Part shown: one piece after another, positions 4,562 to 58,067 of the stretch
How positions within the stretch are numbered: position 1 is the stretch's first letter
Layout of the letters: each line of letters starts with the position of its first letter
Assembly: GCF_017471675.1 (NCBI RefSeq)
Contig: NZ_JAFUSK010000068.1
Span: forward strand, 52,609-116,608
From: Pseudobutyrivibrio sp.
GTDB taxonomy: Bacteria; Bacillota; Clostridia; Lachnospirales; Lachnospiraceae
Length of the DNA stretch: 64,000 nt
Reading direction: 5' to 3'
Notes under the pieces: model-generated
The model's database searches: none
What the model was told of the DNA's origin: nothing
What the model saw: the letters and a program-made list of their open reading frames with translations, nothing else
Position numbers and translations under genes: made by a program

Positions 4562-4659
4562 GTTCTGTTCGCTGGTTACGGTAACAATCATTTATATACA
4601 CCGTCGCGGGATTGGCTCCTTGCGTATATAAATAATTGCTACCTACCAGCGTCTGGAAC
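4562..4659 (-). repeat. Family A element, inverse orientation (A1)
   Basis: Read on the minus strand it has an outer helix CGCTGGT/ACCAGCG, then a single A facing GTA, then helix GGTAGCAAT/ATTGTTACC continuing into an AT-rich stem. The order and the A/GTA internal loop match the forward copies. It lies between fliS and the next element, A2. Confidence 0.8.
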
Positions 4660-4683
4660 GTACTAGGGTTGCTGATAATGAGT

Positions 4684-4767
4684 ATTCGTAGTAGACAATA
4701 ATTGTTTTATTTAAGCGAAGCATTTCTAGCTGAGCGTAATGAAATAATTATTGTCTGCGTAACGAAT
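4684..4767 (+). repeat. Family A element (A2)
   Basis: Outer helix ATTCGT/ACGAAT, internal loop A/GTA, then a 13-pair helix starting G-C, U-G, then AGACAATAATT/AATTATTGTCT. It ends 21 bases before the ATG at 4789 and is followed by GGACTAGGAGG, which includes the ribosome site. It forms an inverted pair with A1. Confidence 0.85.
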
Positions 4768-4788
4768 ACGGACTAGGAGGAGATAGGT

Positions 4789-5271
4789 ATGGAAAATATG
4801 GATTATGTTGTAATGCTTAGGGAGTCACTTGAGAAGAAAGCTGATGTGCTAAGGGTGCTTAATATCAGAAATAAGGAGCAGGAGGCTATTCTAAAAGATC
4901 CTAATTCTACTCCAGATGATTTGGAGAAGAATATGAATATGAAGTCTGAGCTAATCGAGCGAATTATAATGCTTGATGATGGCTTCGAGCAGCTATTTAA
5001 CAGGGTTAAGGCTATTATAGAAACTGACAGGGATACCTATGCAGATGAAATCCGCCTGATGCAGGAGCTAATCAAAAAGGTGACAGCCCTTACAGCGGAT
5101 GTGGAAGCTTCAGAATATCGTAATAAGGAATACGCCAAAACCAGGTTTGCTAATGTAAAAAAAGAGATACGTGAAATCAAAAAATCCTCTGATGTGGTTT
5201 CATCTTATTATAAGCACATGATGAGCCCACAGACTACAGCGGACCCAGCTTTCCTTGATAAAAAGAAATAG
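4789..5271 (+). CDS. Probable FlgN/FliT-like flagellar chaperone
   Basis: A 160-residue, almost wholly helical protein rich in Lys and Glu with heptad-like spacing (ESLEKKADVLRVLNIRNKEQ, ELIERIIMLDDGFEQLFNRV, IREIKKSSDVVSSYYKHMM). The size, helical content and position between fliS and flagellin fit a FlgN- or FliT-type export chaperone, but no diagnostic motif is visible, so the name is by context. The start is set by the GGAGGAG site at 4776. Family A element A2 is directly upstream. A small hairpin (5274-5288) and a strong terminator (5431-5473) follow. Confidence 0.6.
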   Translation: MENMDYVVMLRESLEKKADVLRVLNIRNKEQEAILKDPNSTPDDLEKNMNMKSELIERIIMLDDGFEQLFNRVKAIIETDRDTYADEIRLMQELIKKVTALTADVEASEYRNKEYAKTRFANVKKEIREIKKSSDVVSSYYKHMMSPQTTADPAFLDKKK

Positions 5272-5430
5272 TGTCCTGCGAAGCAGGATTAATGTTAGAG
5301 AGTTCATTGCTTGCCCTTTGTTTTTGGTGGGCACGGCTGTGGGAGAAAAATGTGCTTTAAATATAGCTGATTGGTGGAAATAATAGCATTTTTAACAAAA
5401 AAATTGTTATAAATTTTAACAAAAATTAAA

Positions 5431-5473
5431 GTCGCGAAAAGCCAGTAAAATCAAGGCTTTAGCGGCTTTTTTC
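5431..5473 (+). terminator. Intrinsic terminator before the flagellin gene
   Basis: GTCGCGAAAAGCC pairs with GGCTTTAGCGGC across an 11-base loop, followed by six T (5467-5472). It separates the chaperone transcript from the flagellin unit. The rest of 5272-5530 is AT-rich with no gene. Confidence 0.85.
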
Positions 5474-5529
5474 TTATACCCCAAAAGTGGCCAAAATGGA
5501 ATAAAAATAAAAAATTTTCTAAAAAAGGC

Positions 5530-5556
5530 TAAAGTTTTCAGAATGTGTCTCGATAA
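5530..5556 (+). promoter_or_regulatory. Sigma-28 promoter for flagellin
   Basis: TAAA at 5530-5533, 15 bases, then CTCGATAA at 5549-5556, close to TAAA-N15-GCCGATAA. It gives a leader of about 155 bases before the flagellin start. Confidence 0.8.
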
Positions 5557-5640
5557 ATAAGGTGTAAGGAACAAATGAACTAATCAGCAGCACCTTACAA
5601 ATCGAATTCGAATCTTATTTAAATTTAATAACCAGGCCAG

Positions 5641-5710
5641 ACACGGATGTTGGGCTATCAAACAAAACGGATTTAAATGCTAAAAGGATTTAGCAGAATC
5701 TCATGGAGGA
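5641..5710 (+). promoter_or_regulatory. Candidate CsrA-binding region in the flagellin leader
   Basis: A 7-pair stem TGCTAAA/TTTAGCA (5678-5695) exposes AGGA as its loop. A second GGA lies in the ribosome site GGAGGA (5705-5710), about 19 bases away. An upstream ACACGGATGT (5641-5650) also resembles the CsrA consensus. Paired GGA sites with one over the ribosome site are how CsrA represses flagellin mRNA in Bacillus. Binding here is inferred. Confidence 0.65.
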
Positions 5711-5717
5711 ATTAACT

Positions 5718-7235
5718 ATGGTAGTACAACATAACATGCAGGCAGCTAATGCTTCAAGAACATTGAACATTACAACTGATTCTCAGTCTAAGTCTACAGA
5801 GAAGCTTTCATCTGGATATAAAATCAACAGAGCAGCAGATGACGCAGCTGGACTTTCAATTTCTGAGAAGATGAGAAGACAGATTCGTGGTTTGACCCAG
5901 GCTTCTACAAACGCATCAGACGGTGTATCTTCAGTACAGACAGCTGAAGGTGCCCTCACAGAAGTTCACGACATGCTTCAGAGAATGAACGAGTTAGCAG
6001 TACAGGCAGCTAACGGTACAAACTCAGAATCAGATCGTGACGATATCCAAAACGAAATTGATCAGCTTTCACAGGAAATCGATAGAATCGCTTCAACAAC
6101 AAAGTTCAACGAGACATTCTTACTTAAAGGCGACATCGGATTAAAGAAGATGTATATCGCAGCTCACGATGCAGGTCTTGAGGGAACATTGGTACAGAAC
6201 TCTACAAGAGCAACATTTACAATGGAGTCTCTAGAAGCTGGTGAGAGATATAGAATCGGTGGAACTCAGTATACTATCGGTGCTCAGACAAATGAAGAAG
6301 TAGCAAGAGCCCTTAAGTTCTCTGAGGGAATGTATGATAAGACAAAGGCCAACACAGTAGAAGATGGTTGGAATCTTACAGCTGGTGATACAATTTCTAT
6401 CGATGGAAAGACATATACAATTATCGATGGATCAGCAAGTGATGTTGCAAACGCCAAGGTTACAAATGGCTACCTTCATAATCTTATCGTTGAAGGTTCA
6501 ACTCTTAAATATAATGGTAATGAAGTAACAAGATTTGCTAAGCTTGATCACACAACTGGTATTGACAAGTCTAATGCAACACTTATTACAGCTACAGCAG
6601 CATACAACATGGTAGCAATCGAGCTTAAGGCAGCATCTTCTGTAGGTGCAACAGACGGCGCAGCAGATGTTGATAAATTTAAAGAGACAGATGCTTCTAA
6701 GCCAGGAGTTAAGGCTGGGAATTACGCTTGGAAGACAACAGAGATTGAGCAGACAGTTGGTGGTGAAACACAGAAGACAACTACAATCAGCTTCTCAATC
6801 GACAAAGGCCATGTAAACGTACAGAATGCACTTACACTTAACCTTCATGTTGGTGCTGATGCAGCAATGTCAAACAAGATTAACGTAGCAATCGAAGCGA
6901 TGAACTCTAAGTCAATCGGTATCAACGGTATCAACGTATCCGATGCAACTGGTAAGGCAGCTACATATGCAATCGATGCTATCGCAGATGCAATCCAGAG
7001 AGTTTCAGCACAGCGTGCAGAGCTTGGTGCTATCCAGAACAGATTAGAGCATTCTATTAGAAACCTTGACAACGTAGTTGAGAACACAGAAGCAGCTGAG
7101 TCTCGTATCCGTGATACAGATATGGCTGACACAATGGTTGAGTACTCTAAGAATAACATCCTCCAGCAGGCAGGTCAGTCAATGCTTGCTCAGGCAAACC
7201 AGGCTACACAGGGTGTTATGAACTTACTCCAGTAA
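5718..7235 (+). CDS. hag: Flagellin
   Basis: A 505-residue flagellin. The ATG at 5718 is preferred over the in-frame ATG at 5703 because the latter lies in the ribosome site, and it gives the standard start MVVQHNMQAANASRTLN. The conserved N-terminal D0/D1 region (KLSSGYKINRAADDAAGLSI, about residues 1-165) and C-terminal D1/D0 region (DAIQRVSAQRAELGAIQNRL to QATQGVMNLLQ, about 410-505) flank a variable surface domain with many Ser and Thr. It builds the filament after secretion. Two glycosyltransferases downstream suggest the protein is glycosylated. The hag symbol follows Bacillus; fliC is equivalent. Confidence 0.97.
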   Translation: MVVQHNMQAANASRTLNITTDSQSKSTEKLSSGYKINRAADDAAGLSISEKMRRQIRGLTQASTNASDGVSSVQTAEGALTEVHDMLQRMNELAVQAANGTNSESDRDDIQNEIDQLSQEIDRIASTTKFNETFLLKGDIGLKKMYIAAHDAGLEGTLVQNSTRATFTMESLEAGERYRIGGTQYTIGAQTNEEVARALKFSEGMYDKTKANTVEDGWNLTAGDTISIDGKTYTIIDGSASDVANAKVTNGYLHNLIVEGSTLKYNGNEVTRFAKLDHTTGIDKSNATLITATAAYNMVAIELKAASSVGATDGAADVDKFKETDASKPGVKAGNYAWKTTEIEQTVGGETQKTTTISFSIDKGHVNVQNALTLNLHVGADAAMSNKINVAIEAMNSKSIGINGINVSDATGKAATYAIDAIADAIQRVSAQRAELGAIQNRLEHSIRNLDNVVENTEAAESRIRDTDMADTMVEYSKNNILQQAGQSMLAQANQATQGVMNLLQ

Positions 7236-7261
7236 CCTAAGATTGATACCATAAATTAATC

Positions 7262-7287
7262 TCCCCACCTCATCAAAGAGGTGGGGA
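7262..7287 (+). terminator. Hairpin after flagellin, probable terminator
   Basis: TCCCCACCTC pairs with GAGGTGGGGA around a six-base loop. There is no T-run. Its 5' arm contains CCACCTCATC, the reverse complement of the end of the family C repeat at 7349-7395, so it may be part of that repeat. Confidence 0.55.
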
Positions 7288-7348
7288 AATTACTAAAGAG
7301 AACTAAAAATTAAATATTTAACAATGAAAACAATGCTTACATACCTAG

Positions 7349-7395
7349 CCTTCTCCTTGAGGAGAAGGGGGACCACGAAGTGGTGGATGAGGTGG
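7349..7395 (+). repeat. Family C palindromic repeat (C1)
   Basis: Two adjacent hairpins, CCTTCTCC/GGAGAAGG and ACCAC/GTGGT, followed by GGATGAGGTGG. The same plan recurs at 46466, 56727 and 63876. Similar short palindromes ending GATGAGG are common between genes in gut Clostridia, from memory. Confidence 0.75.
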
Positions 7396-7427
7396 TAAGA
7401 TTCATATAAGATAGAGAGGTAAGGCTT

Positions 7428-7925: not shown

Positions 7926-7937
7926 TATTAAAAATGC

Positions 7938-7966
7938 AAGGCTCGTCAGATGACGAGCCTTCTTCA
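7938..7966 (+). terminator. Intrinsic terminator hairpin
   Basis: AAGGCTCGTC pairs with GACGAGCCTT, an almost perfect long stem with a small loop, followed by CTTC. The T-run is short. It ends the 7428 gene and is only 25 bases before the next start. Confidence 0.65.
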
Positions 7967-7991
7967 GATTATGGGGATATGGGGGAAGAGC

Positions 7992-9870: not shown

Positions 9871-10004
9871 GACGGCATCCAAGTGTGACCTGCTCCCGCA
9901 GGGCACCCTCCATGCCTAACCATGGGAGCCCGCCGGCGTGGGCACCCACCCATGGTCAGGCATGGCGCCCCCCTGCTCGCGCCTGCCTAGGTTAAGTAGC
10001 CGTC
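9871..10004 (-). repeat. Family E composite palindrome, inverse orientation (E3)
   Basis: GACGGC (9871-9876) pairs with GCCGTC (9999-10004). The interior reads CTGCTCCCGCAGGGCACCC, CATGCC ... GGCATG, and CTGCTCGCGCCTGCC, the reverse complement of the plan at 23799-23940. A GC-rich central hairpin contains CCGCCGGCG. A 95-codon minus-strand frame runs through it but shows only palindrome-derived residues and is not a gene. Confidence 0.8.
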
Positions 10005-16092: not shown

Positions 16093-17004
16093 ATGAACGC
16101 ATTTATTAGATTAAGAGACGATATACGTAAGTTTATACTCTCTAGAGAGATGCTATTTTTAAAAATATGGAGTGCTTTAGTGGCTTTTGTAGGCCTTATT
16201 TGTATAAAGGCTAATTTTGGCTACAACAAAACCATCAGTCAAACATGGCTACTTATTATAATTGCAATCTTATGTGCGTTTTTCCCAATTCAGGGAGTAT
16301 CCATAGTGCTTACAGTTATATTGCTAGTGGATTTGCTATCTCTTAGCACTGAGGCGGCTATAGTTGCCCTTGCTCTTGTAGTGGCATCTTATTTGGTGTG
16401 CGCTTATTTTAGAAGCAAGAATACATATAACACAGTAGTAGTGCCTATTTGCTATTCATTCCATTCGCCTTTTGTTATTTCTCTTGGCGCTGGGCTTCTT
16501 TCTAATATTAATGAGCTTTGCAGTGTTATCTGCGGTTCTATCACAGCATACTACTTACATATTATTAAGGATAATGCGGCAGCTATTATAGATGAAACAT
16601 CAGATGTGTCAGTTGTGGCGCTGCTTAATGAACAGATGCTTAAGGGCAGGATGTTTTACTTTTTCCTTGTATCTATGATAGCTATGTTTTTGATTGTTTA
16701 CATGCTTCGTCAGTCCAATATTAACATGTCATGGATAGTTGCTAATCTGGCAGGTGTGATAGTGGAATTTCTTATTATGCTTGTTGGCTATTTACTTACC
16801 AGTCAAAAGGGCGAGATACCAGGTCTTGTTCTTGGTAACATTATCGTAATCATTGTTGGAATAATACTTAATTACTTTATCTTGGATTTGGACTACTCAA
16901 GAATAGAAAAGGTTCAGTTTGAAGATGATGATTATTACTACTATGTAACTGCGGTTCCTAAAATCAGAATCGTAGAGGAAGAAAAAGAAGTTAAGAAAAT
17001 ATAA
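16093..17004 (+). CDS. Polytopic membrane protein, unknown
   Basis: A 303-residue protein with about seven or eight hydrophobic segments (for example WLLIIIAILCAFFPIQGVSI, FFLVSMIAMFLIVYMLR, GLVLGNIIVIIVGIILNYF) and an acidic, Tyr-rich cytoplasmic tail (EDDDYYYYVT). The ATG at 16093 is preferred over the TTG just before it. It is three bases after the previous stop and 30 bases before cdaA. I do not recognise a family. Position suggests a cell-envelope role linked to the c-di-AMP operon, but this is unproven. Confidence 0.85.
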   Translation: MNAFIRLRDDIRKFILSREMLFLKIWSALVAFVGLICIKANFGYNKTISQTWLLIIIAILCAFFPIQGVSIVLTVILLVDLLSLSTEAAIVALALVVASYLVCAYFRSKNTYNTVVVPICYSFHSPFVISLGAGLLSNINELCSVICGSITAYYLHIIKDNAAAIIDETSDVSVVALLNEQMLKGRMFYFFLVSMIAMFLIVYMLRQSNINMSWIVANLAGVIVEFLIMLVGYLLTSQKGEIPGLVLGNIIVIIVGIILNYFILDLDYSRIEKVQFEDDDYYYYVTAVPKIRIVEEEKEVKKI

Positions 17005-20532: not shown

Positions 20533-20541
20533 AGTATATTC

Positions 20542-20622
20542 AAATCCAGTTAACAATCTTTTTTGTTCTGTAAGGAACATCTAGTGACTGAAAGAACAAA
20601 ATAGATTGTGAACGTAGGATTT
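20542..20622 (+). repeat. Family A element (A3)
   Basis: Outer helix AAATCC/GGATTT, internal loop A/GTA, helix GTTAACAATCT/AGATTGTGAAC with one mismatch, then TTGTTCT/AGAACAA and the loop GGAACATCTAGTGACTG. It ends 20 bases before the HPr-like gene. Confidence 0.85.
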
Positions 20623-20642
20623 GTCTCAGACTAGGATTAGAT

Positions 20643-20986: not shown

Positions 20987-21072
20987 GGTTGTAGCTAACA
21001 AGCTATTATAATTCTAAAGCGGAGCTTTTTATGCGGAGCGTAGAATTCATAATGCTTGTGAGCGTAACAACC
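20987..21072 (+). repeat. Family A element with an extra enclosing stem (A4)
   Basis: Outer helix GGTTGT/ACAACC, A/GTA loop, helix GCTAACAAGC/GCTTGTGAGC, then ATTATAATTCT/AGAATTCATAAT, and an inner part with repeated GCGGAGC. A further stem, GCTTGATTT (20962-20970) with AAATCAAGC (21089-21097), encloses the whole element. It ends 48 bases before leuA. Confidence 0.85.
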
Positions 21073-25075: not shown

Positions 25076-25158
25076 GGCTGTAGCTGACAAAAATTATGAT
25101 TCTAAAGGAAGACATGTTAGTCGACCGTAGAATTATAATGTTTGTCGGCGTAACAGCC
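25076..25158 (+). repeat. Family A element (A5)
   Basis: Outer helix GGCTGT/ACAGCC, A/GTA loop, helix GCTGACAAA/TTTGTCGGC with a G-U pair, then ATTATGATTCT/AGAATTATAAT, and an inner GAC/GTC stem. It is followed by GGGAGAACAACTAC and then the glf start. Confidence 0.88.
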
Positions 25159-26313: not shown

Positions 26314-26510
26314 AGGCAGCACAAAAACTATAGAGCAAAGATTCATGAAGTGATTTTATTCTTTTTAGAGGCCTTCTTTTTCACTCGTTACTTAGATGGT
26401 CTCGTAGAGAGCATCTTATGTAACGTAAGTAGAAAAAGCAGAGCGAAAGCGTGCCGAAAAAGAGAATAAAATCAGTGAATGAAGATTTGTGCATAGACTA
26501 AATTGCTGCC
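26314..26510 (+). repeat. Family B structured element upstream of rfbA (B1)
   Basis: Nested stems: outer GGCAGC/GCTGCC, then a long ATTCA...TGATTTTATTC helix, then CTTTTTC/GAAAAAG and CGTTAC/GTAACG. The conserved core TTAGATGG/GCATCTTA carries a TCTC/GAGA tip. GCGAAAGC follows as a GNRA mini-hairpin. It ends 17 bases before the rfbA start. Confidence 0.85.
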
Positions 26511-27476: not shown

Positions 27477-27648
27477 CTAAAGAGCAAAATTCGAGTGCAG
27501 ATAATTATATTGAATTAACAGACCTTTAGGACCCATCCCTACTTAGATGGTGCGTTAGCAGCATCTTACGTAGGGCAATGAGGGCCGCAAGAGCGAAAGC
27601 GTGTCAGTTAATCAATATAATTAGCTGTATGAAGAATTTTGAACATAG
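27477..27648 (+). repeat. Family B structured element upstream of rfbC (B2)
   Basis: It shares the outer AAAGAGCAAAATTC/GAATTTTGAACATAG region with B1. The next helix is ATTATATTGAATTAACAGAC with its complement. The core is CCCTACTTAGATGG/GCATCTTACGTAGGG, so the flanking helix changed on both sides relative to other copies. The tip stem is TGC/GCA. GCGAAAGC mini-hairpin follows. It ends 14 bases before rfbC. Confidence 0.85.
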
Positions 27649-32609: not shown

Positions 32610-32690
32610 AGTCTGTTACGGTAACGAAAAATTATGTTCTCCGCTCACTGATGTGATGCTCCGAAAATAATTTTTCGTTACCTACAGACT
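32610..32690 (-). repeat. Family A element, inverse orientation (A6)
   Basis: Read on the minus strand: outer helix AGTCTGT/ACAGACT, A/GTA loop, then GGTAACGAAAAATTAT with its complement. It follows the sugar transferase stop and makes an inverted pair with A7. Confidence 0.85.
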
Positions 32691-32714: not shown

Positions 32715-32795
32715 GGATGTAGATAACAAAAATTTATTGTCTGTAAGGAACATCTAGTGACTGGAAGATAATAAATTTTTGTTATCGTAACATCC
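32715..32795 (+). repeat. Family A element (A7)
   Basis: Outer helix GGATGT/ACATCC, A/GTA loop, helix GATAACAAAAATTTATT with its complement, and inner GGAACATCTAGTGACTG. It is followed by GGGAGAATGACTAC, like the sequence after A5. Confidence 0.88.
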
Positions 32796-34063: not shown

Positions 34064-34150
34064 GTTGACTGTAGATAACAATATAATAGTTTTCTGTAAG
34101 TGACATCAGTCACTGGAAGAAATCTATTTATTGTTAGCGTAACAGTCAAC
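34064..34150 (+). repeat. Family A element (A8)
   Basis: Outer helix GTTGACTGT/ACAGTCAAC, A/GTA loop, helix GATAACAAT/ATTGTTAGC with one mismatch, and the clearest apical hairpin of the family, AGTGAC/GTCACT around ATCA. TAGATGAG is just upstream and GGATTAGGGAG just downstream, 16 bases before the ATG. Confidence 0.88.
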
Positions 34151-38241: not shown

Positions 38242-39672
38242 ATGTACACTATATGTTTTATGGCAAGGCGTCCTTTCGAGGATTTTTCGCCAGCCGTATA
38301 CAAGAAATTAAAAGAAGCTCATGACGATGTTAAGGGCGTGTTTATCACCTGCGACAAGCAGGAATCAGCTTACGTCTGGGCTAAGTTTAACGAAGAAGAA
38401 AAAAAGGATATCCAGGTTTGTGAGATTTCTGAATTCATGAACAAGCATTGGGACGAATTCACAATAGAAAAGCTTGCTGAAATGGAAGCTAAGTATGATG
38501 CAAGACCTATTTGGAAGTACATCTACACAGACAGATATTTGATTTATAGAGATTATGATTACTGCGTGCATACAGCTGCAGGTCTTTTTGCGTTTTGGGA
38601 ATATGTGTTTAACACATATCATGTGGATTTCTTCTATGATGAGGTTATCGCCACACTTCTTACATACGCAGCTTATTTAGTTGGTAAGAAGACAAATACA
38701 GGCTATTATTCACTGATGTTTATGAGAGCCTGTGGTATGGATTTGACTCATCATTATATCTTAAATGACCCATTTGAGAAGATGTATGATATGCCAGAGG
38801 ATTACGCAAATATCCCTGTCACTGAAGAACAGCGTGCTGCTGCAGAGGCATACTTGACCAAGTTTGAGGAGCAGCACTCTAAGCCTGCATTTATGAAGTT
38901 CTCAGGAACAAAGCCTAAATGGAAGCCAATCTTTTTTGCGTTACCATTTTTCTACCTGAGACAGAGATTCTTCAATCCTCTTACCAGGGATAAAGGCTCA
39001 TATATATATTACAAGTGTTATGAGCACACAATGGATCAGCTGGTATTCTATCTTAGATATTCTAAGGGTAAGAAATATTTTAAGAAGGCTGATTACAGCA
39101 AGAAGTTCGTGTACTTCCCACTTCACATGCAGCCTGAAGCAACAACAATTGTGTGTGCTCAGAAGTATGAGAAACAGCTGTATTTTATCGATAGTCTGGT
39201 AAAATCCTTGCCAGCAGATACTATGCTTTATGTTAAGGAGCATTATTCATTCTTAGGAATTCGTGATAACAGCTTTTACGAGCAGCTGCAGATTTATCCT
39301 AATGTGGTTCTTATTGACCCATGGGAGGATTCAATCAAGCTTATTGAAAAGAGTGAATGTGTAGCCACTCTTACAGGTACTGCAGGTCAGGAAGCCATGA
39401 TGCTTCGCCATCCGGTATTTATGAGTGGAGACATTATTTATAAAGGCGCCCCAGGTGTTATGTACCTAGAGGAAGTATTTGGTAACTACGAAAAGATGAT
39501 GAGTGAATATAAGCGCCCAACCAGAGATGAGGTTATCCAATACATGGCAGTCTACATGAGCCACGCAAGGCTCGGTAACACCTACGTCCTAAGCGAAGAT
39601 CGTCTTTCCGACGAAAACCTCGCAAACGTAGCCGAGTCGATGTATTCGTATTTCGTAGAGATGAAATCGTAG
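38242..39672 (+). CDS. Capsule synthesis (PF05159-like) protein, possible sugar transferase
   Basis: A 476-residue soluble-looking protein. The C-terminal half resembles capsule polysaccharide synthesis proteins of the KpsS/KpsC type (KFVYFPLHMQPEATTIVCAQ, IDSLVKSLPADTMLYVKEHY, IDPWEDSIKLIEKSECVATL, TGTAGQEAMMLRHPVFMSG). In that family the HxQPE-type and STGLA-type segments belong to a CMP-sugar-dependent GT-B fold. Here it could transfer a nonulosonic acid, given the neuB and neuA types in the locus. The function is inferred. The gene end is C-rich and element B3 follows. Confidence 0.75.
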   Translation: MYTICFMARRPFEDFSPAVYKKLKEAHDDVKGVFITCDKQESAYVWAKFNEEEKKDIQVCEISEFMNKHWDEFTIEKLAEMEAKYDARPIWKYIYTDRYLIYRDYDYCVHTAAGLFAFWEYVFNTYHVDFFYDEVIATLLTYAAYLVGKKTNTGYYSLMFMRACGMDLTHHYILNDPFEKMYDMPEDYANIPVTEEQRAAAEAYLTKFEEQHSKPAFMKFSGTKPKWKPIFFALPFFYLRQRFFNPLTRDKGSYIYYKCYEHTMDQLVFYLRYSKGKKYFKKADYSKKFVYFPLHMQPEATTIVCAQKYEKQLYFIDSLVKSLPADTMLYVKEHYSFLGIRDNSFYEQLQIYPNVVLIDPWEDSIKLIEKSECVATLTGTAGQEAMMLRHPVFMSGDIIYKGAPGVMYLEEVFGNYEKMMSEYKRPTRDEVIQYMAVYMSHARLGNTYVLSEDRLSDENLANVAESMYSYFVEMKS

Positions 39673-39725: not shown

Positions 39726-39855
39726 AGAATAATATAAGACTCAAGCAAGACCTTCTCGAACCGTCGTTACTTAGATGGTCCGATAGGAGCATCTTATGTA
39801 ACGCAACGAGTGAGAGCAGAGCGAAAGCGTGTCTGCTGGAGTTTTATATTATTCT
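39726..39855 (+). repeat. Family B structured element upstream of legB-type gene (B3)
   Basis: Outer helix AGAATAATATAAGACTC with its complement, then CTCG/CGAG, CGTCGTTAC/GTAACGCAACG, the conserved TTAGATGG/GCATCTTA core with a TCC/GGA tip, and GCGAAAGC. A reading frame could begin inside it at 39810, but that start is rejected. It ends 20 bases before the ATG. Confidence 0.88.
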
Positions 39856-40874: not shown

Positions 40875-41021
40875 GCTGTAGCAGAAGGCATATACACATA
40901 CATAAGACCTTCTTGAGCCGTCGTTACTTAGATGGTCCCAAAGGGAGCATCTTATGTAACGCAACGAGCGAAAGCAGAGCGCGAGCGTGTCGTTGTATGT
41001 GTATATGACTTATGCGGCAGC
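40875..41021 (+). repeat. Family B structured element upstream of legC-type gene (B4)
   Basis: TAGATGAG precedes it. Outer GCTG/CAGC and ATACACATACA/TGTATGTGTAT helices, then CGTCGTTAC/GTAACGCAACG, core TTAGATGG/GCATCTTA with a TCCC/GGGA tip, then two GNRA mini-hairpins GCGAAAGC and GCGCGAGC. It ends 19 bases before the ATG. Confidence 0.9.
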
Positions 41022-41040: not shown

Positions 41041-42207
41041 ATGGCAGATGAATTCATTGCACTTTCAGTTCCTAATTTAAAGGGAAATGAATTGAAGTAC
41101 GTTACCGATGCAGTAGAGACTGAGTGGGTATCCACAGCAGGCCCTTATGTGTCAGATTTTGAGAAAAAGGTGGCAGAGTACGTTCATACTCCAGCTGCTG
41201 TCAGCACACAGAATGGTACATCAGCACTTCACATTAGCCTTATGCTTTGTGGCGTAAAGCCAGGTGATGCTGTAATCGTTCCTACACTGACATTTATTGC
41301 AGCAGTAAATCCTACAAAGTACGCAGGTGCTGAGCCTGTATTCATGGACTGTGATGATAGCCTTTGCATGGATCCTGTAAAGCTTAAGAGATTCTGTGAA
41401 GAAGAGTGTGATTTCACAGATGGTAGATTAATTGATAAGCAAACAGGTCGTCAGATTAAGGCTATGGTAGTGGTGCATGTATTTGGTAACATGGCAGACA
41501 TGGAAGCCATCATGCCAATCGCTGAAAAGTATAATATCAAGGTTATTGAGGATGCCACAGAGGCGCTTGGAACTTATTATACTGAAGGAAAGTATGCTGG
41601 TAAGTTTGCAGGTACAATCGGTACAATAGGATGCTATTCATTTAATGGAAATAAGATTATCACCACAGGTGGTGGCGGTATGATTGTCTCTAACGATGAG
41701 GCACTGCTTGCTCATGCTAAGCATCTGACTACTCAGGCAAAGGCAGATCAGGCTAATTTCATCCATGATGAAATCGGCTATAACTATAGACTTACAAATC
41801 TTCAGGCTGCACTGGGCCTTGCTCAGATGGAACAGTTAGAGGATTTCATCAAGGTTAAGACAAAGAATTATCATTTGTATAAAGAGGCAATTGATAAGAT
41901 GCCAGGTCTTCACGTGCAGGATTTCCGCCCAGGTATCCGCAGTAACTACTGGTTCTACTCAGTTGTATTTGAAAACGATGAAACTGGCCGTGATAAGCTT
42001 ATCGAAGCCCTTAAGGAAGAGCATATTCAGTCTCGTCCTATCTGGGGTCTTATCTCCGACCAGCTTCCATACGAGGGCGCCCGCACCTACGACCTAACCT
42101 GCGCCCCATGGTACTGGCACCGCGTAGTCAACGTCCCATGCTCAACCAACCTGGACGAGTCCGGCGTACGTCGTGTAATAGATGTAATTAAAAATTTCAG
42201 TGAATAA
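41041..42207 (+). CDS. legC: LegC-type PLP-dependent aminotransferase
   Basis: A 388-residue DegT-family aminotransferase. It starts MADEFIALSVPNLKGNELKY. It has STQNGTSALHISLMLCGVKPGDAVIVPTLT in overlapping parts, KVIEDATEALGTYYTEGKYA, and the PLP-lysine segment CYSFNGNKIITTGGGGMIV. It would aminate the 4-keto sugar made by the legB product. The last bases are strikingly C-rich (30 C and 11 T in 42081-42150), and family A element A9 begins at the stop codon. Confidence 0.88.
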   Translation: MADEFIALSVPNLKGNELKYVTDAVETEWVSTAGPYVSDFEKKVAEYVHTPAAVSTQNGTSALHISLMLCGVKPGDAVIVPTLTFIAAVNPTKYAGAEPVFMDCDDSLCMDPVKLKRFCEEECDFTDGRLIDKQTGRQIKAMVVVHVFGNMADMEAIMPIAEKYNIKVIEDATEALGTYYTEGKYAGKFAGTIGTIGCYSFNGNKIITTGGGGMIVSNDEALLAHAKHLTTQAKADQANFIHDEIGYNYRLTNLQAALGLAQMEQLEDFIKVKTKNYHLYKEAIDKMPGLHVQDFRPGIRSNYWFYSVVFENDETGRDKLIEALKEEHIQSRPIWGLISDQLPYEGARTYDLTCAPWYWHRVVNVPCSTNLDESGVRRVIDVIKNFSE

Positions 42208-42286
42208 AATTCAGATAACAATAAAATATTTCTGGAATGAACATCTAGTGATTGAAAGAAATATTTTATTGTTATCGTAGAATTTT
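42206..42286 (+). repeat. Family A element overlapping the legC stop (A9)
   Basis: Outer helix AAAATTC/GAATTTT, A/GTA loop, and a perfect long helix GATAACAATAAAATATTTCT with its complement, capped by GGAATGAACATCTAGTGATTG. The outer helix sequence differs completely from other copies while pairing is kept. Element B5 follows in the same spacer. Confidence 0.9.
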
Positions 42287-42308
42287 ATGGAGTAAAAAAT
42301 TTAGATGA

Positions 42309-42461
42309 GCAATCTGGAATTGACATATATATAAACTAAGACTGACCTTCTTGAGCCGTCGTTACTTAGATGGCACGTAGTGGCATCTTACGTAACGCAA
42401 CGAGCGAAAGCAGAGTGCAAACGTGTCAGTTGTGTTTATATATATGGCAATGTAAGATTGC
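42309..42461 (+). repeat. Family B structured element upstream of ptmE-type gene (B5)
   Basis: TAGATGAG precedes it. Outer GCAATCT/AGATTGC, then TATATATAAAC/GTTTATATATA, then CGTCGTTAC/GTAACGCAACG, core TTAGATGG/GCATCTTA with a CAC/GTG tip, then GCGAAAGC and GTGCAAAC, the second being a compensated GNRA variant of GCGCGAGC. It ends 14 bases before the ATG. Confidence 0.9.
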
Positions 42462-45274: not shown

Positions 45275-46477
45275 ATGGACAGACATATATTGATTATATG
45301 CCAGTATTTTTATCCCGAGCAGTTTAGGATAAATGATATGGCATTTGAGTGGGTAAAAAGAGGCTACAAGGTCACTGTAGTGACAGGTCTCCCAAATTAC
45401 CCAGAGGGGAAAATATTTGAAGGCTACGGCCTTTTCAAGAAAAGGCATGAAATAATAAATGGTGTAGAGGTTTATAGAATTCCACTGATACCTAGGGGAA
45501 ATGGAAAGCTTGGATTAGTGCTTAATTACTTTAGCTTCCCATTTTTCGGATTCTTTTGGAACATGTTTACACATATCAAGGCTGATGAAGTATACATGTT
45601 TGAAACATCGCCAATGAATCAATGTAAGGTTGGCGTTGCTTATGCTAAGAAGCATAAGGTACCTTGCTATTTGTATGTACAGGACCTATGGCCAGAAAAT
45701 GTAGAGATGATAACAGGCATCCATTCGCCACTTTTAGTAAAGCCAATTGAGCGAATGGTGAGAAAGATATATAAGGGTTGCACCCATATATGGGGAACCA
45801 GCCCAAGCTTCGTAGATTCAATTCGTAAATACGTAGATGAAGAAGAGCAGGATAAGGCAAGCTTTTGGCCACAGTATGCAGAAGAATTCTACGAGCCAAA
45901 GGAAAAGATTGCACACAAAGGCTTTAATGTAATATTTACAGGAAATATTGGCCAGGCCCAGGGACTTGAAATACTTCCAAAGGCTGCAGCTATCATTAGA
46001 AGTGAAGGGGTAAAGGATATTAGGTTTACCATAGTTGGTGATGGCAGAGCTAGAGAAAGCTTTAAGGAAAGCATCACTGCAGCAGGAGTGTGGGACTTAT
46101 TTGAATTTGCAGGTAGAGTAAAGCCTACCGAGGTTCCAGGAATACTTGCCAAGGGTGACGCAGCTTTTATCTCATTTGCAGATGACGAGCTTTTCGCCAA
46201 AACTATTCCTGCTAAGCTGCAATCCTACATGGCTTGCGCAATGCCAATCATTGCCTCAGCCAAGGGCGAGACAGCCAGGGTAATCGCCGAAGCAAAATGT
46301 GGAATGTGCTCAGACATAGGAGATGCAAGAGCCTTAGCTATGAACATCATAGCCATGCGCAACCTCCCAACACCTATCCGCCTTCAAATGGGCGAAAACG
46401 CCCTAGCCTACAACCAGGAGCACTTTTCCAAGAAAAAACTTATGGACTACATGGACACTTTTCTGGCTTCTCCATAA
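45275..46477 (+). CDS. Family 4 glycosyltransferase, WcaI/WbuB-like
   Basis: A 400-residue GT-B enzyme starting MDRHILIICQYFYPEQFRIN. It has GLPNYPEGKIFEGYGLFKKR in the N-terminal lobe, YLYVQDLWPENVEMITG, FTGNIGQAQGLEILPKAAAI, and KTIPAKLQSYMACAMPIIAS in the donor lobe. This is the pattern of WbuB-like fucosaminyl or related transferases, though the sugar cannot be told here. Repeat C3 begins inside the last codons, so the C-terminal residues LASP come from the repeat. Confidence 0.9.
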   Translation: MDRHILIICQYFYPEQFRINDMAFEWVKRGYKVTVVTGLPNYPEGKIFEGYGLFKKRHEIINGVEVYRIPLIPRGNGKLGLVLNYFSFPFFGFFWNMFTHIKADEVYMFETSPMNQCKVGVAYAKKHKVPCYLYVQDLWPENVEMITGIHSPLLVKPIERMVRKIYKGCTHIWGTSPSFVDSIRKYVDEEEQDKASFWPQYAEEFYEPKEKIAHKGFNVIFTGNIGQAQGLEILPKAAAIIRSEGVKDIRFTIVGDGRARESFKESITAAGVWDLFEFAGRVKPTEVPGILAKGDAAFISFADDELFAKTIPAKLQSYMACAMPIIASAKGETARVIAEAKCGMCSDIGDARALAMNIIAMRNLPTPIRLQMGENALAYNQEHFSKKKLMDYMDTFLASP

Positions 46478-46516
46478 GTAGGGAGAAGCTGTCACCGAAG
46501 GTGACTGATGAGGGTA
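46466..46516 (+). repeat. Family C palindrome overlapping the gene end (C3)
   Basis: GCTTCTCC/GGGAGAAGC and GTCACC/GGTGAC hairpins followed by TGATGAGGG. It starts within the last four codons of the 45275 gene, and GAGGG lies 6 bases before the ATG of the 46521 gene. Confidence 0.8.
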
Positions 46517-46520
46517 TGAA

Positions 46521-47351
46521 ATGAAAACAGCATTATCCACAGTAATCTACAAACAAGCCCACCCTTATCTACAGGACCTACTAACATCCGTGGATAACCA
46601 ATCCGATAAGGACTTCGACTTGTTGATAATTAACGACAACTACACAAAGGAAGAGCTTGAAAAGGTAGAAACGCAAATACAAAGTACCGTTCATGGCATC
46701 AATGTCCACATCGAGGACCTAAGTGAAAGAAAGCTTAGCATTGCAGGCACTCGTATCGAAATGCTAAAAACTGCCAAGCGCCTAGGCTATGAAAGCCTAG
46801 TCCTTGTAGACGCCGACGATACAATTTCGCCTACAAGAATGGAAAGCTTTATTAAGTCTTTTGAATTAGACAAAGACTGCGTATTCTTTTATAATAAGTT
46901 CGTTACTGAAACAGGTGAGGATGTGTTTAAAACTTTGCCTGAAGCAGTAGAAGATATCAAGCCAATAGCGCAAGCTAATTTCCTTGGATTATCAAATACC
47001 GGCATTAGGCTAACAAGTCTAAACGCTGACTTCTTAGATAGCCTGAATGAAGGTGCAGTAGCAGTATTTGACTGGTATTTGTTTAGCAGAATCATTATGG
47101 ATATTGGTACAGGTGCTTATGTAGATAATGCAGCTACAATCTATCGTATTTATGATGACAACACTGCAGGCACTACTAGAGATTTAAATAAAGAGTACGA
47201 TGTAAAGACTACTCATTACAATAATCTGGCAAAGCGCTACGATTATTTCAAACAATTGTCAGCTAAGCTAAGTAAGATTGATAAATCGACACTTACGCTT
47301 TCAAATAACCATCAGGGATACTGGTGGAGTGATATTAGTATGGAGGATTAA
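46521..47351 (+). CDS. Family 2 glycosyltransferase
   Basis: A 276-residue GT-A enzyme starting MKTALSTVIYKQAHPYLQDL. It has DLLIINDNYTKEELEKV, and the YESLVLVDADDTISPTR motif that carries the DxD-like metal site (VDADD). It is short, with no membrane segments. Its ribosome site GAGGG is supplied by repeat C3. The stop is two bases before the neuB-type start, and the ribosome site of neuB overlaps its last codons. Confidence 0.88.
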   Translation: MKTALSTVIYKQAHPYLQDLLTSVDNQSDKDFDLLIINDNYTKEELEKVETQIQSTVHGINVHIEDLSERKLSIAGTRIEMLKTAKRLGYESLVLVDADDTISPTRMESFIKSFELDKDCVFFYNKFVTETGEDVFKTLPEAVEDIKPIAQANFLGLSNTGIRLTSLNADFLDSLNEGAVAVFDWYLFSRIIMDIGTGAYVDNAATIYRIYDDNTAGTTRDLNKEYDVKTTHYNNLAKRYDYFKQLSAKLSKIDKSTLTLSNNHQGYWWSDISMED

Positions 47352-48426: not shown

Positions 48427-48514
48427 GCTTGTAGCTATCAAGCTCTAAGTGTTGCCTAAGCGTAGCTTTCTATGCGTAGCGTGGCAATATCTTAGGCTTG
48501 ATAGTGTAACAAGC
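48427..48514 (+). repeat. Family A element (A10)
   Basis: Outer helix GCTTGT/ACAAGC, A/GTA loop, helix GCTATCAAGC/GCTTGATAGT, then TAAGTGTTGCC/GGCAATATCTTA, and inner repeated GCGTAGC. Here both the P1 and P2 helices differ from A11, 11 bases away, while pairing is kept. Confidence 0.88.
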
Positions 48515-48524: not shown

Positions 48525-48605
48525 GGCTGTAGATAACAAGCTATTATGTTTCTCAAGCGAATAATCTATGAGCGGAGAAATATAATGCTTGTTATCGTAA
48601 CAGCC
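48525..48605 (+). repeat. Family A element (A11)
   Basis: Outer helix GGCTGT/ACAGCC, A/GTA loop, perfect helix GATAACAAGC/GCTTGTTATC, then TTATGTTTCT/AGAAATATAA. CAGATGAG is upstream and GGACTA downstream. It ends 20 bases before the neuA-type start and is a direct repeat of A10 in the same spacer. Confidence 0.9.
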
Positions 48606-53318: not shown

Positions 53319-53321
53319 ACG

Positions 53322-54401: not shown

Positions 54402-55369
54402 TGGAAAAAGAATACGGGGGATGCCTCCCACTAGAACTTAACAAACTAAACATTGATTTATTCAAAGGCTTTGATAGCGTTGCTCTTAATTCTGGACGCA
54501 ACGCCATCGCCTATGCCTGTTTAGAAGGCGGCTTTACTCACTGTTATATACCTTATTATACTTGCAAAACAGTTGAGGCTGGTTTGAAGGAAGTAGGGGT
54601 AACACCACTTTATTACAACATCGACGAAAGCTTTATGCCGGTTACTCCAAAGGAAGGGTTCAACGATAAGGCTTTATTCGTATATACGAATTACTTTGGA
54701 ATAATGACTCATGTGATGCAAATGGATATCATTGCAGAGCATTCACATGTTTTATTTGATAATACGCAAGGATTTTACACCAAACCTATGCGTGGAACTT
54801 ACAGTGCATACAGCTGCCGTAAGTTTTTCGGCGTTCCTGATGGTGCATATCTGGTAAGTGATTCATTAAAGAGACTTAACATACCACAGGGAAGCAGTGC
54901 AGATAATGCCACATTTTTACTTAAGGCTATTGAGGCTGGACCTAATGCAGCTTATGCCATGTCCAAGGACAATGAAGAGCATATTAATGAAGAGGGCATG
55001 GCTTACATGTCACCTCTTACAAATGCACTTATGTCAGCTGTTAATACTGAATCTGTTGAAAAACAGAGATTATCAAATTTCGAAAGATTACACAGTAAAC
55101 TAGAAGCTTATAATAGGCTAAATATTAGTATAGAAAATGGTGCGCCTATGGTTTACCCTCTTTTAGTTGAAAAGGAAGGGGTCAGGGAGACATTAGTTGA
55201 AAACAACATATTTGTACCTCGTTGGTGGAGATGGATTGTAGAATCACCTGACACTAACGATTTCGAAAAGAAGTTATCAAGGTTTTTAGTGCCACTTCCA
55301 GTGACACAGATATATGACATTAATGATATGGATTATATTGCAAACAAAGTATTGGAGATAATCGCGTGA
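54401..55369 (+). CDS. DegT-like PLP-fold protein, divergent
   Basis: A 322-residue protein related to DegT/DnrJ sugar aminotransferases but shorter than the usual 360-400. It has the N-terminal LNSGRNAIAYACLEGGFTHC (PLP-binding-like GRNAI), HVLFDNTQGFYTKP where the family has D.AQ, and AYSCRKFFGVPDGAYLVSD, in which a Lys sits where the PLP lysine is expected. It may be an aminotransferase acting on the product of the previous gene. The divergent motifs make activity uncertain. Its start overlaps the previous stop; its stop overlaps the next GTG start. Confidence 0.7.
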   Translation: MEKEYGGCLPLELNKLNIDLFKGFDSVALNSGRNAIAYACLEGGFTHCYIPYYTCKTVEAGLKEVGVTPLYYNIDESFMPVTPKEGFNDKALFVYTNYFGIMTHVMQMDIIAEHSHVLFDNTQGFYTKPMRGTYSAYSCRKFFGVPDGAYLVSDSLKRLNIPQGSSADNATFLLKAIEAGPNAAYAMSKDNEEHINEEGMAYMSPLTNALMSAVNTESVEKQRLSNFERLHSKLEAYNRLNISIENGAPMVYPLLVEKEGVRETLVENNIFVPRWWRWIVESPDTNDFEKKLSRFLVPLPVTQIYDINDMDYIANKVLEIIA

Positions 55370-56724
55370 AAAATAAAAACACAGTTAGAAAGATAGAAAG
55401 CGCAATCGAGCTTGCTATCATGGCAATTGCATATTATCTTGTGTGGAAATACCAGATTTTCGACAGTGAATATTTTTACCCATTTTTAGGTCGTGGAAAA
55501 TACGTACTGATGGGAATTTATTTTGTACTGATGCTTGTTATCATACATCTATGTGAAGGATTCAAGTACGGAATTCTAAAGATTGCAGATGTACTGTTTT
55601 CTCAATGGATAGCAATATTTATTGTAAATGCGGTAACATATTTTCAACTTTGCCTTATGGCAAATGTAATGATTCCTGTAGCACCGATGCTTAGGTTGAC
55701 GTTAGGAGATTTTGTAATCTCAGGAATTAGTGTATATATTTTCTTTGCAATTTACCAAAGTCATTCCAAGGCAAGTAAGCTATTGATGGTATACGGCAAT
55801 AAGGAATCAGTAAGCTTGAAGCTTAAAATGGACACACGTTCAGACAGTTATAATATCAGACGTATTGTGAGCATTGATGAAGGAATGGATTCTATTATTG
55901 AGATGCTTGCTGATTATGATGGAATAGTTATTTCCGATGTTAGTGCCGAGCAGCGTAACGATTTGTTAAAATACTGCTACATGCACGAAATTGAAACATA
56001 TATTACACCAAAGATTTCCGATGTTATTATTGCGGGCGGCGAGGGTATTCATCAATTTGATACGCCACTTGTTATGATTAACACTACAGGTCTTACACCA
56101 GAACAGAGAAGTATCAAGAGATTCTTCGATGTAGTTCTTTGCTCTATAGCGTCAGTTGTTCTTTCGCCACTTATGCTTATTATTGCAATTGCAATCAAGC
56201 TTGAGGATCATGGCCCTGTATTTTACAAGCAAGCCAGAGTTACTAGAGATGGCAAAGTATTTGATATTCTCAAATTCAGAAGTATGGTTGAGGATGCGGA
56301 GCAGCGTCCAGCCACAGATGATGATGACAGAATCACAAAGGTTGGTCATGTAATCAGAGCCACCCGTGTGGATGAGCTTCCACAGCTGTTCAATATTATT
56401 AAGGGAGATATGTCCATCGTTGGTCCACGTCCCGAGCGTATTGAACATGTTCAGAAATACACAGAAGCCATTCATTAGTTTTAATTCCGTAGCAATGTAA
56501 AGGGCGGTCTTACAGGTTATGCTCAGATATACTGAAAATACAATACATCAGCATATGATAAGATCAAGCTTGATCTTATGTACATTGAAAACTATAGCTT
56601 TCTACTTGACATTAAGCTCATCCTGATGACTATCAGAATTGTGTTCAAGAAGGAAAGCACCGAAGGATTCGACAAAGTAGTAACCGCCGACGAAATCTTA
56701 GAAACATTAAATCAAAACAAATAA
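55366..56724 (+). pseudogene. Second undecaprenyl-phosphate sugar transferase, broken by three stops
   Basis: The GTG-started frame encodes 370 residues ending KYTEAIH at a TAG (56476-56478), inside the sugar transferase domain. The same phase continues with TAA (56482-56484), then the intact family tail RSNVKGGLTGYAQIY, a TGA (56533-56535), and KYNTSAYDKIKLDLMYIENY down to a final TAA at 56722. No shift in frame is needed. It is the family's C-terminal segment, as in the intact paralogue at 31207. Total length without the stops would be 452 residues. The domain is truncated and probably inactive. Readthrough or sequence error cannot be excluded. Confidence 0.9.
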
Positions 56725-56726
56725 AA

Positions 56727-56771
56727 GCCTTCCCCCTCTGGGGGAAGGTGCCCCGCAGGGGCGGATGAGGG
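56727..56771 (+). repeat. Family C palindrome (C4)
   Basis: CCTTCCCCC/GGGGGAAGG and GCCCC/GGGGC hairpins followed by GGATGAGGG. It follows the broken sugar transferase, and GAGGG lies 5 bases before the ATG at 56777. Confidence 0.8.
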
Positions 56772-56776
56772 TTAAC

Positions 56777-57934
56777 ATGCCAATATACACACCAAAAATA
56801 ACAAGAGAATATAAGCGTTGCACCCAATGCGTCATGGACACCACAGATTCTATGATTGAATTCGACGAACAAGGTGTCTGCGACCACTGCCGCAATTTCG
56901 AAAAAAATATTAAACCATACTGGGATCCAACAAAGGAAAATCGTGAAGAGCTAGAACGTATAGCTGCCCAAATCCGCAAGGATGGCGAGGGCAAGGATTA
57001 TGATTGTATCCTTGGTATGTCAGGCGGAGCAGATAGCTCTTATCTTGCCTACATAGCAAAGGAAATCATGCATCTTCGTCCACTTATCTACGTAGTAGAT
57101 ACAGGCTGGAATCTTAATGTTGCAGTTGAAAATATAGAAAAGATTGTCAAGGGCATGGACCTTGATATGTATACTGATGTTATTAATTGGAAGGAGATGA
57201 GCGACTTCCAATTATCTATGTTTAAATCAGGAATCAGTAGCTGTGATGCTCCACAGGATCATGCTATTTTCGCATCTCTTTACAATTATGCTGTAAAGCA
57301 TAAGATTAAGTGGGTTCTTACAGGTTCCAACAACAGTACAGAATTTGTACGACCACCTGTAGAATGGATATATATGAACGACCTGAGAATGTACAAGGAC
57401 ATTCATAAGAAATTTGGCAAGCGTCCTATGAAGACATACCCTACATGTGGAATCCTTAAGTATAGATTACTGTACAAATATGTTTATGGAATGAAGCGTT
57501 TCTATCCTTTGGATTATGTAGTATATGATAAGGCCAAAGCTGAAGAGTTCTTACATGAAAAGTACGGCTGGACTAAATACGAAAACAAACATTACGAGAA
57601 CGTATTTACCAGATTCTTCGAGGGCTATTATCTTCCATACAAGTTTGGATTTGATACTAGAAAGAATGTATTCTCTACTCAAATCCTTGCAGGTACTATG
57701 ACTAGAGAAGAAGCTTTAGAAAAGCTTAAGACTAATCCATACGATACAGACCAGATGGAGCAGGATAAGGAGTATATCGCTAAGAAGCTTGGTGTAACCA
57801 CAGAGGAATTTGATGAAATCATCAACTCTCCAGCCCACACTCCAGAGGACTACAAAAACTCCATGTGGATGATCCGTCTAGGCGTCAAAATAAGCCAGAT
57901 GCTAGGCATTGAAAAACGTAACATGCGATTTTAA
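56777..57934 (+). CDS. N-acetyl sugar amidotransferase (WbpG/PseA/PtmG-like)
   Basis: A 385-residue protein. The ATG at 56777 follows GAGGG from repeat C4; an upstream ATG lies inside the repeat. It has a CTQC and CDHC zinc-type pair, the ATP-pyrophosphatase loop ILGMSGGADSSYLAYIAKEI, and GSNNSTEFVRPP and YPTCGILKYRLLYKYVYG. This family converts an acetamido group to an acetamidino group using ATP and ammonia. The HisH/HisF-like genes at 58086 and 58707 would supply the ammonia. Its acceptor may be a nonulosonic acid or the 3-amino sugar. The end is C-rich. Confidence 0.88.
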   Translation: MPIYTPKITREYKRCTQCVMDTTDSMIEFDEQGVCDHCRNFEKNIKPYWDPTKENREELERIAAQIRKDGEGKDYDCILGMSGGADSSYLAYIAKEIMHLRPLIYVVDTGWNLNVAVENIEKIVKGMDLDMYTDVINWKEMSDFQLSMFKSGISSCDAPQDHAIFASLYNYAVKHKIKWVLTGSNNSTEFVRPPVEWIYMNDLRMYKDIHKKFGKRPMKTYPTCGILKYRLLYKYVYGMKRFYPLDYVVYDKAKAEEFLHEKYGWTKYENKHYENVFTRFFEGYYLPYKFGFDTRKNVFSTQILAGTMTREEALEKLKTNPYDTDQMEQDKEYIAKKLGVTTEEFDEIINSPAHTPEDYKNSMWMIRLGVKISQMLGIEKRNMRF

Positions 57935-57983
57935 GGTAAAAGTTAGCTTGTAACATAACAGGCCCTGTAATTAGACAAAGTAA

Positions 57984-58067
57984 GCCTGTAGCTAACAAGC
58001 ATAAATGTTTCTGAAGGAGACATTCTAGTCGACGAAAGAAATATTTATGCTTGTTAGCGTAACAGGC
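57984..58067 (+). repeat. Family A element (A12)
   Basis: Outer helix GCCTGT/ACAGGC, A/GTA loop, helix GCTAACAAGC/GCTTGTTAGC, then ATAAATGTTTCT with AGAAATATTTAT, and an inner GAC/GTC stem. A frame could begin inside it at 58047, but that start is rejected. It ends 18 bases before the hisH-like ATG. Confidence 0.9.

Follow-up and report, generated by a model that had tools for sequence, protein, structure and literature searches.

The window analysed here, a stretch of 64,000 nucleotides from a Pseudobutyrivibrio genome (G000), carries a set of hairpins in the spacers between its genes, raising the question of whether these are leader RNAs of the operons in which they lie or copies of a mobile DNA element. 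The original prediction listed twelve structured repeats, and alignment and folding confirmed 12 of 12: every copy folds better than its shuffles, with RNA folding z-scores from -4.27 to -11.41 and no shuffle folding equally well. The first minus-strand copy, previously placed at 4562, was corrected to 4570-4651. The copies are:

4570..4651 (-): copy 1, antisense to the operon, spacer of a FliS gene and a FlgN-like gene; head-to-head with copy 2
4682..4769 (+): copy 2, sense, 5' of the FlgN-like gene (a match under Pfam's cut-off)
20541..20623 (+): copy 3, sense, spacer of a phosphomannomutase-type gene and an HPr gene
20987..21072 (+): copy 4, sense, preceding leuA, the alpha-isopropylmalate synthase gene
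25076..25158 (+): copy 5, sense, upstream of glf (UDP-galactopyranose mutase)
32610..32690 (-): copy 6, antisense, arranged head-to-head with copy 7
32715..32795 (+): copy 7, sense, 5' of a glycosyltransferase gene
34064..34150 (+): copy 8, sense, upstream of a glycosyltransferase gene
42204..42288 (+): copy 9, sense, adjoining the stop of a DegT-type aminotransferase gene
48427..48514 (+): copy 10, sense, 3' of a NeuB-family gene; in tandem with copy 11, which follows it
48525..48605 (+): copy 11, sense, second tandem copy, 5' of a cytidylyltransferase gene
57984..58067 (+): copy 12, sense, preceding a glutamine amidotransferase gene

A blind scan of both strands of the window for the pattern helix, A, 54-93 nt, GTA, helix gave 11 matches, namely nine of the twelve copies and two others, at 38555 and 56933, that look like chance. 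The copies at 20542, 20987 and 34064, visible in the alignment and the folds, were missed by the strict rule of the scan. As controls, six swapped motif pairs gave no matches each, and a match occurred in 3 of 20 first-order Markov simulations.

The fold and its conserved parts

The hairpin is about 85 nt long, with a body of about 70 nt, and is built from an outer helix, usually of at least 6 bp, the A/GTA loop, a long helix in which CAA/TTG is nearly invariant, and a cap. A search of the window's genome, with 150 of 1914 candidates scored, points to about 86 good copies. From a set of 91 matches in this genome four opposite-strand shadows were dropped, and 84 of the remaining 87 make up the set used below (A3).

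The claim that the helices covary was borne out. RNAalifold assigned 29 pairs to the 12 window copies, 25 of which are changed on both sides, and in the 84 copies 94.3% of cells are paired, with a covariation score of 0.725 that fell to 0.088 or less when the partners were slid by 1-3 columns. This strong covariation supports the selection on structure, in RNA or in single-stranded DNA, that the original prediction had proposed. Its statement that only the internal loop stays fixed proved too strong, as the CAA/TTG pairs, the GA/GA cap and the flanks are conserved too. The C-G, A-T and A-T pairs of CAA/TTG in the second helix are present in 84, 83 and 84 of 84 copies, and the pairs beside the loop are G-C in 74/84 and T-A in 80/84. 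GA/GA mismatches, sought anywhere in the apical part, were found in 61 of the 84 copies, the next commonest apical content occurring in 10. Outer helices of at least 10 bp are present in 7 of the 84 anchored copies. Analyses of flanks, of body and outer-helix identity and of start-codon distance were made with the 72 of 84 anchored copies with at least 5 bp; in these a weakly inverted flank, TTAG...CTA(A), is conserved. The TGTAG seen in many copies lies inside the fold, spanning the outer helix and the loop A, and its position is occupied by TCCAG in copy 3 and TTCAG in copy 9.

Distribution, gain and loss of the copies

Searching Lachnospiraceae genomes, as suggested with the original prediction, revealed that the repeat is genus-wide, with copies in 28 of the 29 Pseudobutyrivibrio genomes and in none of 297 sampled genomes of other Lachnospiraceae, for which 15 candidates per genome were scored under strict filters. 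The counts within the genus, obtained by scoring 74 and then 150 candidates per genome, are lower bounds; G012 carries at least 71 copies. The view that this is not a named family stands: no Rfam model matched the window at or above its gathering score, and a permissive search of two copies returned a single non-credible match (E 4.9). Carriage by phages was considered and rejected: viral contigs gave 0 and 3 pattern matches, and a model search of those three was empty.

Between related genomes, copies are gained, lost, nested, tandemly repeated and inverted in place. The pyrB-pyrI copy is a gain in one clade of six genomes, the 20 other parsed loci being empty (2 of 28 loci, with an unparsed gene boundary, were left out). 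For the same reason 1 of 29 loci was left out at the Der site, which is empty in 13 of 28, and 3 of 29 at plsY-gpsA, empty in 11 of 26. At guaB the outer helix of the element is itself the terminator stem, a GC-rich hairpin with a T tract; of 26 loci, 12 are filled and 10 are plain hairpins, and the 3 with an unparsed gene boundary were left out, two of them having model matches. In G008 and G015 the guaB hairpin has a short loop and is more probably a relic of deletion than a site before insertion, because the sister group and G016 are filled. Inversion in place was seen, the same pair being oppositely oriented in G000 and G006, and the same element in G003 and G028. One possible 6-bp target-site duplication was found, at plsY-gpsA, and none could be established, which counts against mobility, as does the lack of near-identical copies in the window's genome, where the best body pair is 92% identical.

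We also considered whether the body moves by itself. Outer-helix identity was 0.64 for the most similar bodies vs about 0.55, and body and outer helix were uncorrelated (Mantel r 0.008, p 0.44); since neighbouring body segments, used as a control, were equally uncorrelated (Mantel r 0.05), the weak link was withdrawn as general evidence, and single cases remain. Two candidate footprints were likewise rejected. Small hairpins with the TGA...GG flank and no body gave 34 matches in stretches of the window's genome, and the one that is short-looped looks like chance; a short A..GTA loop was found in 1 of 42 terminator-like hairpins. By eye, G011 has a bodyless small hairpin at purF-purB.

No mobilising enzyme was found, which also speaks against mobility. 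Y1_Tnp (PF01797, the RAYT-type transposase) has no match in G000, on which ground membership of the REP/RAYT system was rejected, and across the genus it is present in 10 of 29 genomes and missing from 19. RVT_1 is patchy as well, with two matches in the window's genome and none in 14 of the 29 genomes, including G008, G014 and the copy-rich G012, in which neither Y1 nor a reverse transcriptase was matched.

Strand asymmetry, gene context and rival readings

The strand with A...GTA conserves its fold through compensatory change whichever way the neighbouring operon reads. In the body, on the element's own + strand, G.T pairs outnumber A.C by 90 to 1 in the window's genome, and the 12 antisense copies keep this asymmetry on their own + strand (16 to 0), so the fold is not kept solely as operon mRNA. 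In other genomes the asymmetry is weaker (44 G.T, 4 A.C), and the antisense group at the Der site (5 distinct rows) has 6 G.T and 1 A.C. One-sided A.G mismatches are also skewed, 22 to 3 and 2 to 18. The outer helix, unlike the body, is nearly all Watson-Crick and has no G.T preference (5 G.T, 5 A.C).

In the window's genome 56 copies are sense and 12 antisense, and in 36 of 72 copies a start codon with a Shine-Dalgarno-like motif lies 14-48 nt past the outer helix, an arrangement that resembles regulatory RNA and weighs against the mobile reading. None of the 87 copies in G000 lies between divergent genes; among 25 copies of G012, chosen to include exceptions and examined for a replication bias, 13 are sense, 6 antisense and 6 have opposed neighbours, one of the 25 looking divergent. 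Neighbours were taken from a mechanical ORF finder (at least 70 aa), so some neighbours are misclassified, as with L099:2017, a 'convergent' copy that sits behind purF; in most relatives purF is followed by purB. By eye, no T tract follows the listed sense copies between genes. A promoter in the 5' flank was disfavoured: TATAAT within one mismatch is enriched beside the element (25 of 72 copies vs 13 and 13 of 72 further upstream), but TTGACA is not (5, 7 and 3 of 72).

The main rival, possible but doubtful, is a cis-acting regulatory RNA: a sense leader hairpin between cistrons, near the Shine-Dalgarno of the next gene, at which a bound protein or ligand would tune translation, stability or read-through, the whole family forming one large regulon. 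The orientation and start-codon distances favour it, and G.T tolerance together with the GA/GA cap is RNA-like. Nevertheless, orthologous sites are often empty, the neighbouring genes have unrelated functions, Rfam offers no match, and the antisense copies hold their fold on the strand that is not mRNA. The original prediction had allowed for either a mobile element or a leader RNA; the empty and filled sites, nesting and inversions strengthen the mobile half of that statement, and the antisense copies weaken a pure mRNA leader.

Covariation could also arise by mutation, if template switching at an imperfect inverted repeat during replication copied changes from arm to arm with no selection on a folded strand. 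The in-place inversions and short-repeat deletions show replication slippage at these sites, and the nearly complete Watson-Crick pairing of the outer helix, free of strand bias, fits this process, which may act there. As an account of the family it is quite improbable, as it would not predict the G.T excess of the body, the one-sided A.G mismatches or the conservation of the A/GTA loop and the GA/GA cap. Still less credible is an RNA-mediated mobile element, in which a reverse transcriptase would copy the + strand RNA into DNA with terminator-like hairpins as targets: the fold kept on one strand, the copies inside terminator stems and the two RVT_1 matches agree with it, but the genomes lacking RVT_1 include copy-rich ones.

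We read the repeat as a new REP/MITE-like family acting via a single-stranded form, and give a probability of about 0.58 to its being a genus-specific, short, non-coding mobile hairpin. A putative trans-acting recombinase or transposase would recognise the folded single strand, most simply single-stranded DNA in replication or transposition, and its likely marks are the A/GTA loop, the CAA/TTG pairs and the GA/GA cap. Selection would leave copies where they do least harm, in transcribed, untranslated spacers from stop codon to Shine-Dalgarno and in terminator stems, and some copies were perhaps co-opted in place as leaders or terminators. A bolder version, which we judge unlikely, is a mobile hairpin of a new kind: a folded single-stranded body of about 70 nt that would enter, invert and exchange within other hairpin stems, be they those of terminators, of operon hairpins or of further copies, the A/GTA loop being the junction and the putative recombinase unrelated to Y1 or reverse transcriptases.

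One repeat family appears both mobile-like and strictly constrained as a structured single strand, with many empty and filled orthologous sites, making testable the old question of whether such repeats persist as substrates of DNA recombination or as regulators acting as RNA. The repeat is, besides, a further structured family, present throughout a rumen genus and covered by no Rfam model; its enzyme, if found, may reveal a new way of moving hairpin DNA.

Comparison with known systems

Integron attC sites are recognised as folded single-stranded DNA, their structure being conserved above their sequence. Unlike them, the Pseudobutyrivibrio hairpin was not accompanied by cassette arrays in the stretches inspected around its copies. 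It is comparable to the LoaP element, a small UNCG-type antitermination hairpin that Firmicutes RNAs carry in leader regions and that is associated with long biosynthetic operons (PMC12691694); identity with it was rejected, given the different fold and the sole NusG-type match in the window's genome, which at 93.5 bits is under the LoaP cut-off of 125. In the Bacillus cereus group the bcr repeats are interspersed, some being MITE-like and some of conserved structure, and about half are transcribed, in UTRs or operon spacers (PMC3446304). Both families are interspersed in Firmicutes; they are likened by description, and no family link is claimed.

A close frame is that of REP/BIME elements, described as many-copy intergenic hairpins of the GTAG and CGTC superfamilies with G.T pairs in their stems, 20-40 bp long, lying between unidirectional or convergent genes and forming oppositely oriented dimers, the CGTC superfamily having no dedicated transposase; these descriptions name other phyla, and Firmicutes, Clostridi and Butyrivibrio are not mentioned in the paper (PMC3733652). 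The Pseudobutyrivibrio hairpin differs in its length of about 85 nt with A/GTA loop, long helix and GA/GA cap, in its mostly sense position close upstream of start codons, in a genome with no Y1 match, and in having no unpaired terminal GTAG or CGTC tag. Like REP elements, it is intergenic, avoids divergent gene pairs in G000 and forms dimers of opposite orientation, with six inverted pairs in the window's genome.

The fold and its strand

All 12 listed copies of family A, the intergenic hairpin repeat of about 85 nt, are present in the window. Every copy folds far better than its own shuffles (z -4.27 to -11.41), and 25 of the 29 consensus pairs across the 12 show two-sided changes. Rfam gave no gathering-score match in the window, and a permissive Rfam search with two copies gave no credible weak match.

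The anatomy was described from 84 copies (alignment A3) of G000, the window's own genome (3.10 Mb, 92 contigs). The outer helix is mostly at least 6 bp long, with 98.0% of its cells paired, and reaches at least 10 bp in 7 of the 84 anchored copies; at the guaB site it is the terminator stem itself. It leads to the internal loop, a single A opposite GTA, followed by a second helix with an invariant or near-invariant CAA/TTG and a further helix beyond. The cap reads x-GA-stem-loop-stem-GA-x in 61 of the 84, any other 2x2 content being found in at most 10. Conservation extends past the element by about 8 nt on its 5' side and 6 nt on its 3' side. Among 72 copies, the flanks carry TGA before and GG after the outer helix in 29 (typically TTTAGATGA...GGACTA, whose TAG and CTA could pair with each other), TA...GAG in 14, AA...GTA in 3 and other types in 26.

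If the fold operated in operon mRNA only, antisense copies would be expected to tolerate A.C, which is G.U in their mRNA, and not G.T on the element strand. Counting body cells, which are non-independent events because the copies are related, we found 90 G.T and 1 A.C in the 84 copies, 16 and 0 in the 12 antisense copies, and 44 and 4 in 54 distinct rows of other loci, nearly all from other genomes. The A.G mismatches were also one-sided (A.G 22 vs G.A 3 at one pair, 2 vs 18 at another), whereas the outer helix lacked such bias (G.T 5, A.C 5). Thus, constraint on the body acts on the strand of the element itself. The strand test speaks for a role as DNA or as an independent RNA, and the sense copies (56 vs 12 antisense) may also act in mRNA.

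Distribution, neighbours and accompanying repeats

Using model R1, we found about 86 strong copies in G000. At E <= 1e-4 this model matched 28 of the 29 genomes of Pseudobutyrivibrio, a genus of Lachnospiraceae, and none of 32 other relatives. The counts at this threshold were 0 in G020, 1 in G007 and 4 in G004, and three genomes of 1-3 contigs carry at least 50, 71 and 146 copies. A search of 299 sampled genomes of the family with model R2 gave matches in 2, both Pseudobutyrivibrio. For the Der protein of G000, the best named matches are Pseudobutyrivibrio (90-100% identity), with up to 80% outside the genus among the matches listed.

Of 87 copies in G000, 58 lie sense between two genes, 12 are antisense to both neighbours, 12 have an opposed downstream neighbour, 5 lie at a contig or stretch end and none separates a divergent pair. 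For 36 of 72 copies, the next 60 nt contain a start codon with an SD-like motif, at 14-48 nt from the outer helix (median 24.5). There are 6 close inverted pairs, all head-to-head (5' ends facing), and 8 close tandem pairs. The adjoining window genes are functionally unrelated to each other: fliS, flgN-like, phosphomannomutase-type, HPr, leuA, sugar epimerase, glf, glycosyltransferases, DegT aminotransferase, neuB, cytidylyltransferase and glutamine amidotransferase. Elsewhere, judged from translations alone, the neighbours include pyr, pur, fab, flg, rnc-smc and rpmA-obg genes.

Other repeats in the window and elsewhere in G000:
26353-26471, 27520-27621, 39732-39849, 40889-41007, 42327-42443: second repeat family, five copies
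46465-46527, 63875-63937: 63-nt repeat, 90% identical, two small hairpins and then directly ATG
764-808, 63956-64000: 45-nt inverted-repeat-like element, two copies, 84% alike
536-576, 9873-9913, also stretches L094 (near 1116) and L099 (minus strand, near 16631): CTCCCGCAGG repeat or its complement

Copies of the second family are about 65-79% alike over 66 nt, and their conserved region spans 86-88 nt; they contain ...CGTTACTTAGATGG...AGCATCTTATGTAACGCAACGAG... and also resemble a structured RNA or hairpin. In two G000 loci the CTCCCGCAGG repeat directly adjoins what appear to be 3' halves of family A. Just 5' of family A copies in six stretches (L018, L080, L087, L099, L100, L117) lies another repeat, CTCGCGCTTGCCTAGG... 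or one close to it, as if the two were travelling or accumulating together.

Empty, filled, inverted and nested sites

Between pyrB and pyrI, family A is full, nested or a remnant in six genomes and missing from 20 other parsed loci (19 genomes). Because the six carriers form one clade (support 0.93, three-gene tree), the simplest account is a single gain; the remnants in G015 and G023 fit deletions between TGT repeats of both arms. The Der site is empty in 13 of 28 genomes, including G023, whose sister G008 is filled. There, G000, G008, G015, G016 and G021 share a (-)(+) pair, the corresponding pair of G006 is inverted as one unit, and G003 and G028 hold the same element in opposite orientations. 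At plsY-gpsA, 15 of 26 loci are filled (14 by model matches, G014 by eye) and 11 empty; 12 of the 15 have exactly the outer helix GCTGGT/ACCAGC, with bodies of different cap types.

Of 26 guaB terminators, 12 carry family A inside the stem, in the guaB direction in G013 and G017 and oppositely in the others; the rest comprise 10 plain short-loop hairpins, 3 other long hairpins and 1 not parsed. The stems of G000 and G008 differ at two pairs, both compensated. In G014 (L158), G002 (L162) and G024 (L170), long hairpins without a model match occupy the stem position that family A has in other genomes, and are perhaps diverged copies or other families at the same place.

Nested copies were seen by eye in seven G000 loci (L018, L023, L038, L086, L090, L107, L109). 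In L107, L086, L038 and L090 the inner and outer elements have identical outer-helix letters, suggestive of local duplication and not of independent insertion.

Proposed mobility and known repeats

We read family A as a REP/MITE-like hairpin that a putative enzyme would recognise as a folded single strand; its insertion step is putative. No Y1 transposase match was found in G000, 19 of the 29 genus genomes lack one, and in G012 (at least 71 copies, 99% complete) we found neither Y1 nor reverse transcriptase. Because replication through inverted repeats can yield in-place inversion and internal deletion, family A may undergo both without a dedicated enzyme. As a general argument, bodies moving independently of stems failed its control, a test of adjacent segments within the body; single cases were kept, among them 92% identical bodies in unrelated stems and the outer helix common to different bodies at the gpsA site.

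Among the papers listed in literature searches, with subscription journals thinly covered, none describes family A in its title or abstract. Among the bcr repeats of Bacillus cereus are MITE-like families and families of conserved structure, which are partly transcribed (PMC3446304). REP elements are intergenic, avoid divergent spacers, form opposite-orientation dimers and contain G.T pairs, all as family A does, and their CGTC superfamily also has no dedicated transposase (PMC3733652). Unlike REPs, family A is biased to the sense orientation and lacks a Y1 transposase, and its length, internal loop and cap differ from theirs.
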